Positions 29,114 to 32,875 of a stretch of DNA of 64,000 nt are shown here, piece after piece; positions within the stretch are counted from its first letter, which is position 1; each line of letters starts with the position of its first letter. This stretch comes from an uncultured Coriobacteriaceae bacterium (lineage in GTDB: Bacteria > Actinomycetota > Coriobacteriia > Coriobacteriales > Atopobiaceae): positions 62,001 to 126,000 of the forward strand of contig CADAQM010000001.1 of the NCBI GenBank assembly GCA_902790135.1, given 5' to 3'. The translations under genes and the position numbers were made by a program. Below the pieces are notes generated by a model. It did no database searches, had not been told where the DNA came from, and saw nothing but the letters and a program-made list of their open reading frames with translations.

Positions 29114-29857
29114 CTATCGTCTCTGCAGCACCACGTAGCGGTTGAGGTTGCCCAGCCTGCCATCTGCCGAGAAGCGCGCAACCTCGCTCACTGCCGACGG
29201 AAGTGCCATGACGAGCTCGTCGATCTCGCGCTCGGTGAAGCTGTGGCAGTAACGGGCGACATCGGTGCGATCCTGCCACCCCAGCAGGTAGTCGCCCTCG
29301 TGTCCGCCTTCGACCAGCCGCGCCTTCTCGCGCAGACGCACGTCGCGCATGAACTGCCAGTAGGATACCGCCACGTATCCGCCAGTGCGCACATGCGCAA
29401 GCAGCGCCTCGAGCACCTGCAGGCGATGCTCCGGCAGAGGCACGTGATGCATGAAGCCAAAGCAGACGGCCAGGTCGCAGGAAGGCGCCACGAGCGAATC
29501 GACAAGGTCGTCTCCCGCATAGAGCGTGTCCATCACGTCCAGATGCTGATAGGCGACCGAGGCGTTGGGGTGCATCGCGTACAGGGGGCGCTCCCCACGC
29601 GCCACCAGGTCGTCGCAGCTGTCGACCGCCCATGCCTGCACGTCAAGACCCTGCTGCGCCAGGAACCGCTCGAAGCGGAGGTTGCCGCAGGCGATGTCCA
29701 GCACGTCGAGGCCCGTGCGCCCGCGCAGGTCCAGCTCGTCCATCATGCGCATCCAACCCGGCCACGCTGACTCGCGCGTGGCCGAGAAGCTCGGGCTGAC
29801 CTCCTGATAGAAGGTGCTTGTGAGCTGACTCAGGTGCTGTGCCGTCTTGAGGTCCAT
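29114..29857 (-). CDS. Trm9/ALKBH8-like SAM-dependent methyltransferase
   Basis: 247 residues from the ATG at 29857. Class I motif I is VLDIACGNLRFERFL (about 52-66). Three blocks match the eukaryotic tRNA wobble-uridine methyltransferase Trm9 and the ALKBH8 methyltransferase: FYQEVSPSFSATRESAWPGW near the N-terminus (family: vY..iA.hFs.TR...Wp), MHHVPLPEHRLQVLEALLAH (family: hH.st.eRR.e.i..l), and RYCHSFTEREIDELV near the end (family: RYYH.y.egEL), then a terminal N..VV strand. It is divergent from elp3, whose product makes the 5-carboxymethyl uridine that Trm9 methylates. No ribosome site precedes the ATG; a TATACT box ends 6 nt before it, so the mRNA is probably leaderless. A Trm112-like partner was not seen in the window. 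Confidence 0.75.
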   Translation of the reverse strand: MDLKTAQHLSQLTSTFYQEVSPSFSATRESAWPGWMRMMDELDLRGRTGLDVLDIACGNLRFERFLAQQGLDVQAWAVDSCDDLVARGERPLYAMHPNASVAYQHLDVMDTLYAGDDLVDSLVAPSCDLAVCFGFMHHVPLPEHRLQVLEALLAHVRTGGYVAVSYWQFMRDVRLREKARLVEGGHEGDYLLGWQDRTDVARYCHSFTEREIDELVMALPSAVSEVARFSADGRLGNLNRYVVLQRR

Positions 29858-29862
29858 GAAGC

Positions 29863-29872
29863 AAGTATACTT
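29863..29872. promoter_or_regulatory. palindromic -10 element shared by divergent leaderless genes
   Basis: AAGTATACTT is its own complement, so both strands read TATACT here (plus 29866-29871, minus 29869-29864). The plus-strand ATG of elp3 follows after 8 nt and the minus-strand ATG of the methyltransferase after 6 nt. Neither gene has a Shine-Dalgarno sequence. -35 matches on both sides are poor. Confidence 0.65.
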
Positions 29873-29879
29873 TCCAACC

Positions 29880-31664
29880 ATGGAAGAGGCTTTGCTAGAG
29901 ATAATCGGTGCGCTTAAGGCGGGAGACGAACCGCTCGATGCCGCATGGCTCGACCGGCTGCTGCGCAAGATCAGTCGCGCCAAGCACGAGAGCACCCGAA
30001 GCGTCACCAAGCGCAAGCTTCTACCCTACTACCTTGCCATCAAGGCACACGATGAGGAACGTTGGCGCTCCTGGGGCATCGACGAGGCCATCGAGCACGA
30101 GCTGCTGCGCCTGCTCAAGGTCAAGCCACGACGCACCGCCTCCGGCGTGGCTACGATCACAGTGATCACCAAGCCTTGGCCTTGCTCGAGCGACTGCCTC
30201 TACTGCCCCAACGACGTCCGCATGCCCAAGAGCTATCTGGCCGACGAGCCCGCCTGCCAACGGGCAGAGCGCAACTACTTTGACCCCTACCTGCAGGTCC
30301 GCTCGCGGCTGGTGGCGCTGCGCGAGATGGGACACGTGACCGACAAGGTGGAGCTCATCATCCTCGGCGGCACGTGGAGCGACTATCCCCGCAGCTACCA
30401 GCTCTGGTTTGTGCGCGAACTCTTCCGCGCCGTCAACGACTTCGGCGGGCGTGGGTACGCGGGTGACAGCCCCGAGGAGCGCGACCGCCGCTACCGCGTG
30501 TGTGGCTTCACGCATGATGCGACCGAACTCGAGCGGCGCACGGCAGACGTACAGCAGGCGGTCAATGCCGGCGAGCTCTCCTACAACGAGGCAATCACCC
30601 GGCTCGGTCGGCGCGAAGAGTGGGCGCTGGCCGCGAGCTGGCAGACCGCAACGATACAGGAGCTGGAGCGCGAGCACCTTTACAACGAGGACGCTGCGCA
30701 CCGCGTGGTTGGGCTCACCATCGAGACGCGACCCGACCTCATCACCCGAGACAGCGCCCGCGAGATGCGCGAGCTGGGTTGCACGAAGATCCAGATGGGC
30801 ATCCAGAGCCTCGACAGGCACATCCTTGAGATCAACCATCGTCACGTGAGCATCGAGCAGATCGAGGAGGCCTTCTCGGCCTTGCGCCTAGCAGGCTTCA
30901 AGATCCAGGTGCACTTCATGGCAAACCTGCTGGGCTCGACGCCTGAAGCAGATGCCGCCGACTACCTGCGCCTGGTGAGCGACGAGCGCTTCCTTCCCGA
31001 TGAGGTCAAGCTCTACCCCTGCTGCCTCGTGGAGAGCTCGCGCCTTGGCGCATGCTATGAGTCGGGTGCCTGGCAGCCCTATGGCGAGGACGAGCTTGTG
31101 GACCTCCTGGTGGCGGACACTCTCGCGACACCCGCCTACACGCGCATCTCGCGCATGATCCGCGACATCTCGTCCACCGACATCGTGGCTGGAAACAAGA
31201 AGACCAACTTGCGCCAGATGGTCGAGGCGCGCATAACCAGTGCCGGCGCCGACGTGCGCGAGATCCGCATGCGCGAGGTGGCCACCAGCGATGTTGCACC
31301 CTCTGACCTGCGCCTTGACTGCGTAAGCTACCACACCACGGTAAGTGACGAACGCTTCTTGCAGTGGGTGACGCCAGAGGGGCGTATCGCGGGCTTCCTG
31401 CGACTGTCGCTACCCCTAACTGGCACGGAGGCCATGATCCGAGAGGTTCACGTATACGGACGCGTCGCGGGACTTGGCGCGTCAGAGCGGGGAGGCGCGC
31501 AGCATGTGGGCCTGGGGCGCGCGCTCGTGGAGGACGCGTGCTGCCGCGCGCGCGAAGCGGGGTTTGCCGCCATCAACGTGATCAGCGCGATAGGCACGCG
31601 CAACTACTATCGCGGGCTTGGATTTGACGATGCCGGACTCTATCAGAGACGCTCTTTGGCATGA
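29880..31664 (+). CDS. elp3: Elp3-family tRNA uridine-34 carboxymethyl synthase (radical SAM + acetyltransferase)
   Basis: 594 residues from ATG 29880; in-frame ATG 29856 lies on the methyltransferase start and is less likely. The N-terminal substrate-binding region contains the basic block TRSVTKRKLLPYYL. The radical SAM domain has the cluster cysteines C102, C106 and C109 (PCSSDCLYCP), a GGTWSDYP strand, ETRPDLI and TKIQMGIQSLD. The C-terminal GNAT domain carries REVHVYGRVAGLG, QHVGLGRALVEDA and ISAIGTRNYYRGLGF. Bacterial and archaeal Elp3 act alone, converting U34 of certain tRNAs to cm5U with acetyl-CoA and SAM. The divergent neighbour is a Trm9-like methyltransferase that could esterify this product. 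Confidence 0.93.
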   Translation: MEEALLEIIGALKAGDEPLDAAWLDRLLRKISRAKHESTRSVTKRKLLPYYLAIKAHDEERWRSWGIDEAIEHELLRLLKVKPRRTASGVATITVITKPWPCSSDCLYCPNDVRMPKSYLADEPACQRAERNYFDPYLQVRSRLVALREMGHVTDKVELIILGGTWSDYPRSYQLWFVRELFRAVNDFGGRGYAGDSPEERDRRYRVCGFTHDATELERRTADVQQAVNAGELSYNEAITRLGRREEWALAASWQTATIQELEREHLYNEDAAHRVVGLTIETRPDLITRDSAREMRELGCTKIQMGIQSLDRHILEINHRHVSIEQIEEAFSALRLAGFKIQVHFMANLLGSTPEADAADYLRLVSDERFLPDEVKLYPCCLVESSRLGACYESGAWQPYGEDELVDLLVADTLATPAYTRISRMIRDISSTDIVAGNKKTNLRQMVEARITSAGADVREIRMREVATSDVAPSDLRLDCVSYHTTVSDERFLQWVTPEGRIAGFLRLSLPLTGTEAMIREVHVYGRVAGLGASERGGAQHVGLGRALVEDACCRAREAGFAAINVISAIGTRNYYRGLGFDDAGLYQRRSLA

Positions 31665-31727: not shown

Positions 31728-32636
31728 TTACTTCTCGTAGATGAGAATTGCGTCCTGGCCGATAGCCTGCGTGAAGTCGACCGTCAGGTGGTCGTCCAGG
31801 GTACCAACGGGAAGCTGAGCCTGGCCGTTGACGTCGATGTATCCGCCCTCGTCGCCCACACCAAAGCTCACCGTTTCACCCATCATCTCGACGGCACCAT
31901 CCTCGCTGATTACGATCGTCTCGTTGCCCTCGCCGATCATCGAGGACATCGCATCGGCATCGCCATAGGCGGTTGAACCCATGAAGTACATGCCCACGAG
32001 CGTCCAGTCGCCAACCACCGCATCGACGGAGTCCACCGCAGCGATGGCAGCGGGATCGACAGTCGGATGGTCAGCAAGCGTGCCATCAGCAGTGAAATAC
32101 AGCGTCCCGCTAAAGTCGTCGCCAAGAGAAGTGACCGTCAGGACGCCATCCTCGAGCGTGAACTCGACTTCAGTTCCCCCTTCGGTCATGCCCTCGACCG
32201 CATCCTCGGCACCCTCGACGGCGTCCTCGACGTCTGCATCGTCGGTGGAGGCGTCGGCGCCATCCGTCTCATCGGGAGTCTTCAGTACGATGGTCGTATC
32301 GGATTTCTGCTCCCACGTGCAGACAACCGTATCGCCATCGAAGCTCATCCGAGCCTCGCCACCCTTTTCGATGTTGACCTTCATGGTTTCGGAGGCTTCG
32401 AGCAGCTCCGTGAGATCGCCCACCATGGTCAGGCCCTCCGACTTAACTGCAGCAAGCTGCCACTCGCCGTAGAAGTCCTCCGCGGGGTCGACGACCTCTT
32501 CCGGCTCTGCAGCCTCCTGCGCAGCAGGGGGCTCCTTTGCCGCGCCATCCGTCGAGGCGGATCCACCACAAGCAGGCACGCCAAGAATGCTCAGGCCGAG
32601 CAGGGCCGCCAGGAGCAGGTTCAGATGCTTATTCAT
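31728..32636 (-). CDS. lipoprotein of unknown function with two similar beta domains
   Basis: 302 residues from the ATG at 32636, with AAGGGAG upstream. Signal peptide with lipobox LGVPAC (Cys23). After an acidic linker come two halves of like pattern: FYGEWQLAAVKSEGLTMVGDL to TLADHP, and VVGDWTLVGMYFMGSTAYGDA to the end. Each has a GxW start and ends in beta strands, as in small lipocalin-like or DUF-type lipoprotein domains. An Asp/Ala/Glu-rich loop (about 135-165) sits in the first half. Likely exposed at the cell surface; function unknown. Confidence 0.8.
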   Translation of the reverse strand: MNKHLNLLLAALLGLSILGVPACGGSASTDGAAKEPPAAQEAAEPEEVVDPAEDFYGEWQLAAVKSEGLTMVGDLTELLEASETMKVNIEKGGEARMSFDGDTVVCTWEQKSDTTIVLKTPDETDGADASTDDADVEDAVEGAEDAVEGMTEGGTEVEFTLEDGVLTVTSLGDDFSGTLYFTADGTLADHPTVDPAAIAAVDSVDAVVGDWTLVGMYFMGSTAYGDADAMSSMIGEGNETIVISEDGAVEMMGETVSFGVGDEGGYIDVNGQAQLPVGTLDDHLTVDFTQAIGQDAILIYEK

Positions 32637-32875
32637 GCAGACACTCCCTTCCTCGGGATGAAACCTATCCTCACGGTAACGCCCCCCAGGCATAAATGTG
32701 ACCTGCCGCTAGAGTTAAGCTCGTCCAACGTGCGCACCAACCTCGTAAATGGCGTCTTGAGGCGGATGCGCAGGCATCACCCGACGCCCTCATCCTGGCA
32801 TCGACGCGTTGCGCAGCGCTCGATTCTCCTTGCGATATCATCGTATGCCGTCATCGTTGCTTGAGAGGGAGCCCC

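Follow-up and report, generated by a model that had tools for sequence, protein, structure and literature searches.

Divergent genes for Elp3 and a Trm9-like methyltransferase in Coriobacteriia: a possible bacterial mcm5U34 pathway

In eukaryotes, Elongator makes cm5U34 through its Elp3 subunit and Trm9 methylates this base to mcm5U34, and mcm5U counts as a hallmark of eukaryotes and perhaps archaea. A 2017 review (PMC5372719) describes Trm9/ALKBH8 enzymes that depend on Trm112, and states that relatives of Trm112-dependent methyltransferases were not detectable in bacteria. Archaeal Elp3/Trm9 gene clusters have been noted in Sulfolobus and Haloferax, and mcm5U has been predicted there (PMC2584109, PMC5372719), and DmcElp3 of Dehalococcoides mccartyi has been called a rare bacterial example (PMC6367351). 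Our search of the open-licence literature returned no published bacterial mcm5U or Elp3-Trm9 pair.

Here we describe a locus in a 64,000-nucleotide stretch of DNA from an uncultured Coriobacteriaceae bacterium (the window), which can be set beside each of these systems. It resembles eukaryotic Elongator with Trm9-Trm112 or ALKBH8-TRMT112 in its Elp3 catalytic residues, its Trm9-type motifs (TR..PW, CGN, HH, PW and RYxH..N) and its expected chemistry, but differs in having a single-protein Elp3 (the search was confined to this subunit of Elongator), a Cys in place of yeast Tyr243, no Trm112 that we could find, and genes placed on what appears to be one promoter. Like archaea, it combines Elp3 and a Trm9 homologue in a prokaryote, as in the cluster of Sulfolobus solfataricus; the archaea listed there, however, carry Tuc1/NcsA-type thiolation and Trm112, whereas here the host is a bacterium with MnmA and no Trm112 that we could find. 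The pair would share the C5 position of U34, and thus one niche, with bacterial MnmE-MnmG (cmnm5U) followed by MnmC or MnmL/MnmM (mnm5U), although the enzymes are unrelated and, judged by curated cut-offs, the class lacks both MnmE and MnmG. It has in common with DmcElp3 that it is a bacterial single-protein Elp3, from which the coriobacterial protein departs by an insertion of ~75 residues and the loss of the Zn-linker cysteines.

The gene pair and its Elp3

Both open reading frames are intact and stand head to head, with 22 bp between their ATG codons (Table 1). The sequence-only reading had described a complete Elp3 opposite a methyltransferase with FSATRESAWP, MHHVPLPEHRLQVLEAL and RYCHSFTEREI blocks, and both descriptions hold: all three blocks are present in the methyltransferase product, and the Radical_SAM and Radical_SAM_C domains of Elp3 exceed their Pfam cut-offs, while its GNAT part scores weakly in Pfam yet aligns to DmcElp3 and MinElp3 up to the end. 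The nearest named record to the methyltransferase, 93% identical, comes from an uncultured Atopobiaceae bacterium. Flanking genes (for a PucR-type regulator, an ornithine cyclodeaminase family member, Hsp33, PPK2 and others) show no obvious connection with tRNA modification. An ORF at 31731-32693, downstream of Elp3 and on the opposite strand, encodes a 321-aa acidic, lipoprotein-like product without a Pfam match.

Table 1. Positions of genes, protein features and intergenic element in the window
Feature	Position	Strand	Details
Trm9-like class I SAM methyltransferase, 247 aa	29114..29857	-	Start ATG 29857; fold pLDDT 96 (AlphaFold2); 5CM2 best PDB profile match; invariant R28, H137/H138, R202, N239
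Symmetric -10 element AAGTATACTT, putative bidirectional promoter	29863..29872		TATACT on both strands; ATGs 8 nt (+) and 6 nt (-) away
Elp3 (radical SAM + acetyltransferase), 594 aa	29880..31664	+	Start ATG 29880; TIGR01211 above cut-off; catalytic residues invariant in 35 relatives
Elp3 radical SAM cluster cysteines C102, C106, C109 (CX3CX2C)	30183..30206	+	Invariant in 35 sequences
~75-residue insertion in Elp3 radical SAM domain (residues ~187-262)	30438..30665	+	Lacking from DmcElp3, MinElp3 and four deeper Actinomycetota Elp3s (alignment gap)

The Elp3 scores 407 bits against NCBIfam TIGR01211 (cut-off 350), and its nearest solved structures are DmcElp3 and MinElp3; MinElp3 numbering was carried over by hand through an alignment with both, and the roles of catalytic residues were taken from PMC6367351 and PMC13315578. 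MinElp3 K150, E207, K266, K302, Y304 and Y517 correspond to K156, E282, K341, K377, Y379 and Y576, all invariant in 35 Elp3 sequences, as is the equivalent of MinElp3 H463. The position of MinElp3 Q461 is occupied in the same 35 sequences by Glu (E522), as in DmcElp3. From its sequence, the window Elp3 is likely to form cm5U34. Coriobacteriia-type Elp3 lacks the C.C..C linker motif that holds the Zn-linker cysteines; the Elp3s of deeper Actinomycetota are canonical, unlike this type with its insertion and lost cysteines.

Family assignment of the methyltransferase

Searched as a single sequence, the methyltransferase matches general families and obtains no specific name from Pfam or NCBIfam; its best PDB match is Yarrowia Trm9 (5CM2, E 0.0026), to which direct identity is low (single-sequence E about 1e-3). 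A 28-sequence profile places Trm9 first in the PDB at 1.3e-6, with the runner-up at 2.4e-4. When deeper Actinomycetota members are included these values become 1.4e-16 and 2e-12, and a profile from the deeper members alone gives 1.7e-20 and 1.2e-18; in the enlarged and deeper profiles the Trm9 alignment spans the N-terminal TR..PW and C-terminal PW..RYYH blocks. Reciprocally, the Yarrowia Trm9 sequence has the Elp3-adjacent methyltransferase as its top match in the window's genome (E 1e-3). In six deeper Actinomycetota genomes it ranks the Elp3-associated gene first, at 31-35% identity (E 1e-14 to 6e-18). In some Coriobacteriia, for example G134 and G061, the single-sequence Trm9 query was too weak to rank the methyltransferase first.

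Mutation of R29, H115, R241, Y243 or N271 of yeast Trm9 impairs tRNA binding and catalysis (PMC5372719). Mapped through the 5CM2 alignment and motifs rather than the yeast sequence itself, with yeast numbering from that review, R29, H115, R241 and N271 correspond to R28, H137/H138, R202 and N239, which are invariant in 52 methyltransferase sequences. With four of five cm5U34-orienting residues invariant, Trm9 as best profile match and the reciprocal result in the window's genome, the Trm9/ALKBH8 assignment made from the sequence alone is supported. The UbiE-like affiliation that had been named as a refuting outcome was not found, as NCBIfam UbiG scores 17.5 bits against a cut-off of 102.95 and the Trm9 residues are kept.

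The fifth yeast residue, Tyr243, is replaced by Cys204, invariant in the methyltransferases of Coriobacteriia. Together with the low Trm9 identity and the failure to find Trm112, this would allow a shifted specificity, in which the enzyme acts on U34 after Elp3 but yields another product (a further-processed base, modification at the 2'-O position, or methylation of part of the pool with the rest as ncm5U). We consider such a shift unlikely: the remaining cm5U34-orienting residues are invariant, and deeper homologues, themselves 31-35% identical to Trm9, have C, Y, F or V at the Tyr243 position, which is therefore not strictly constrained and not clearly defining.

The predicted structure is a class I SAM methyltransferase fold (pTM 0.93). 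With Foldseek, 5cm2_Z was matched at E 4.9e-12 and had the highest identity (22%) among the 50 matches listed. A fold comparison with VIA-align was dropped as a test of family, with METTL6 and N-terminal methyltransferases in the lead and only ~2 Z units spanning 50 class I entries; 5CM2, an incomplete chain, was not among the matches listed. So many class I methyltransferases share this fold that it does not set Trm9 apart from them. The position of METTL6 at the head of the structural Z list, and the promiscuity of class I folds, could nevertheless be taken to mean that the enzyme targets another position or molecule, such as a small metabolite or, like METTL6, tRNA position 32 (m3C32), and lies near Elp3 for reasons of regulation. 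Against this, METTL6 is not among the reported sequence-profile matches, where Trm9 leads; the distribution of the genes, described below, bears on the same question.

Co-occurrence, gene order and the intergenic region

Among 149 Coriobacteriia genomes, a strong Elp3 occurs in 62 and the methyltransferase in 61, every one of which also has Elp3; none of the 87 genomes without a strong Elp3 has the methyltransferase. Across 396 Actinomycetota genomes, Elp3 is found in 32 and the methyltransferase in the identical 32, six of which lie outside Coriobacteriia and carry the canonical Elp3 subtype. Fisher tests gave 1.5e-41 and, for the 396-genome set, 7e-48, values that ignore relatedness. The pair is also jointly present or absent within genera (G056 versus G044, G068 and G082; G134 versus G112). 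Applied to whole, methyltransferase-rich genomes, the A1 profile picked only genomes with Elp3 and, outside the class (n=6), the Elp3-linked gene. We conclude that the pairing is far beyond chance.

Such strict dependence holds for two divergent Elp3 types and through several rearrangements, which points to a substrate that Elp3 makes and renders a target other than U34 improbable. Still more remote, to the point of being nearly negligible, is the idea of an ordinary UbiE-type small-molecule methyltransferase lying beside Elp3 by chance; it draws on the single sequence matching general Pfam methyltransferase models only, and is contradicted by the co-occurrence in 32 of 32 genomes, by linkage and by the low UbiG score.

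Two genomes depart from simple pairing. G096 (L070, G096:C62) is the one genome of the class sample with an Elp3 but no methyltransferase; there the modification might end at cm5U or go on to ncm5U. G058 (L068, G058:C4) has a second, unlinked methyltransferase copy in addition to the linked one.

A survey of Elp3-adjacent methyltransferases in Coriobacteriia, as proposed in the sequence-only reading, revealed nearly universal adjacency: the two genes lie within 5 kb in 59 of 61 genomes, 57 divergent and 2 tandem (G036, G052), the exceptions being G136 (unlinked) and G018 (split over contigs). Divergence was likewise seen at 75 of 80 loci from named genomes (74 scored, plus L117); L134 and L149 are tandem, operon-like pairs of opposite gene order, and at three loci the sequence covered contains no Elp3. 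A regulator or other genes stand between the pair at some loci, with divergence and closeness kept. Outside the class, the arrangement is divergent in all four genomes with both genes on one contig (G180, G204, G216, G392), and the methyltransferase start points at the contig end in G353 and G382. In G039 (L073, G039:C9:165000-174500) both genes have lost their N-terminal parts: a C-terminal methyltransferase fragment remains, and Elp3 lacks its first ~210 residues. Apparently a single deletion spanning the shared promoter has disabled the pair.

The symmetric box between the start codons (Table 1) is kept in the near relatives L075, L076, L078, L083 and L088. A different symmetric box, ATTGTACAAT, is present in L108 and L122, which suggests repeated selection for symmetry. 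In 56 of 72 cases for Elp3 and 32 of 80 for the methyltransferase, the start codon is preceded at 5-9 nt by the end of a -10-like TANNNT, compared with 5.4 each in shuffled sequences. An alternative in-frame ATG at 29856 would give an Elp3 of 602 aa and was judged less likely, because the start at 29880 is conserved and TANNNT is enriched at this spacing upstream of it. Given the short distance from the box to both ATGs, the two mRNAs may be leaderless, and the sequence suggests divergent leaderless transcription of both genes from overlapping -10 boxes. As far as sequence conservation goes, the earlier proposal of a shared promoter stands, in the form of a conserved symmetric -10 sequence between the genes.

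Wobble-uridine setting and predicted pathway

MnmG exceeds its curated cut-off in only one of 149 Coriobacteriia genomes and MnmE in none of 59, which leaves the class without the usual bacterial C5 route. Weak matches (partial and below cut-off, for MnmG mostly over positions ~290-410 and for MnmE over the GTPase segment) were not counted. A strong Elp3 is missing from about 87 of the 149 genomes, and MnmG from all but one. The window's genome encodes MnmA separately from the Elp3 locus, and contains tRNA genes with UUU, UUC, UCU and UCC anticodons. The sequence-only reading had noted no Trm112 partner nearby, and its absence extends further, with no match to PF03966 anywhere in the window's genome; Trm112 matches elsewhere in the class, located inside frames of 141-836 aa, were not counted.

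We suggest the following sequence of events. A single symmetric, divergent promoter would fire both genes, probably as leaderless mRNAs. In tRNAs such as Lys(UUU), Glu(UUC), Arg(UCU) and Gly(UCC), Elp3 would draw on acetyl-CoA and SAM-based radical chemistry to attach a carboxymethyl group at C5 of U34. The carboxylate of the resulting cm5U34 would then be methylated, again with SAM, by the Trm9-like enzyme, yielding mcm5U34. MnmA could add the 2-thio group to form mcm5s2U34. The pair would in this way stand in for MnmE/MnmG without Trm112.

The two-enzyme bacterial route envisaged from the sequence is supported, largely by comparative genomics (co-occurrence, linkage and the Trm9 match), with mcm5U34 as its predicted product. 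It is probable, in our judgement, that the locus encodes a Trm112-independent wobble-uridine pathway leading from cm5U34, made by Elp3, to mcm5U34, made by the Trm9-like enzyme. With slightly less assurance, we also think it likely that Actinomycetota make mcm5U34 and mcm5s2U34 through this minimal pair in place of MnmE/MnmG, which would be the first bacterial mcm5U route and would involve a self-sufficient Trm9.

If so, a bacterial two-gene version would shift the eukaryotic/archaeal boundary of mcm5U and reveal how wobble uridines are modified in lineages that lack MnmE/MnmG. The common gut genera Collinsella, Slackia, Adlercreutzia and Atopobium are among those concerned. It would also offer a simple two-protein system for the study of Elongator chemistry and of Trm9 without Trm112.
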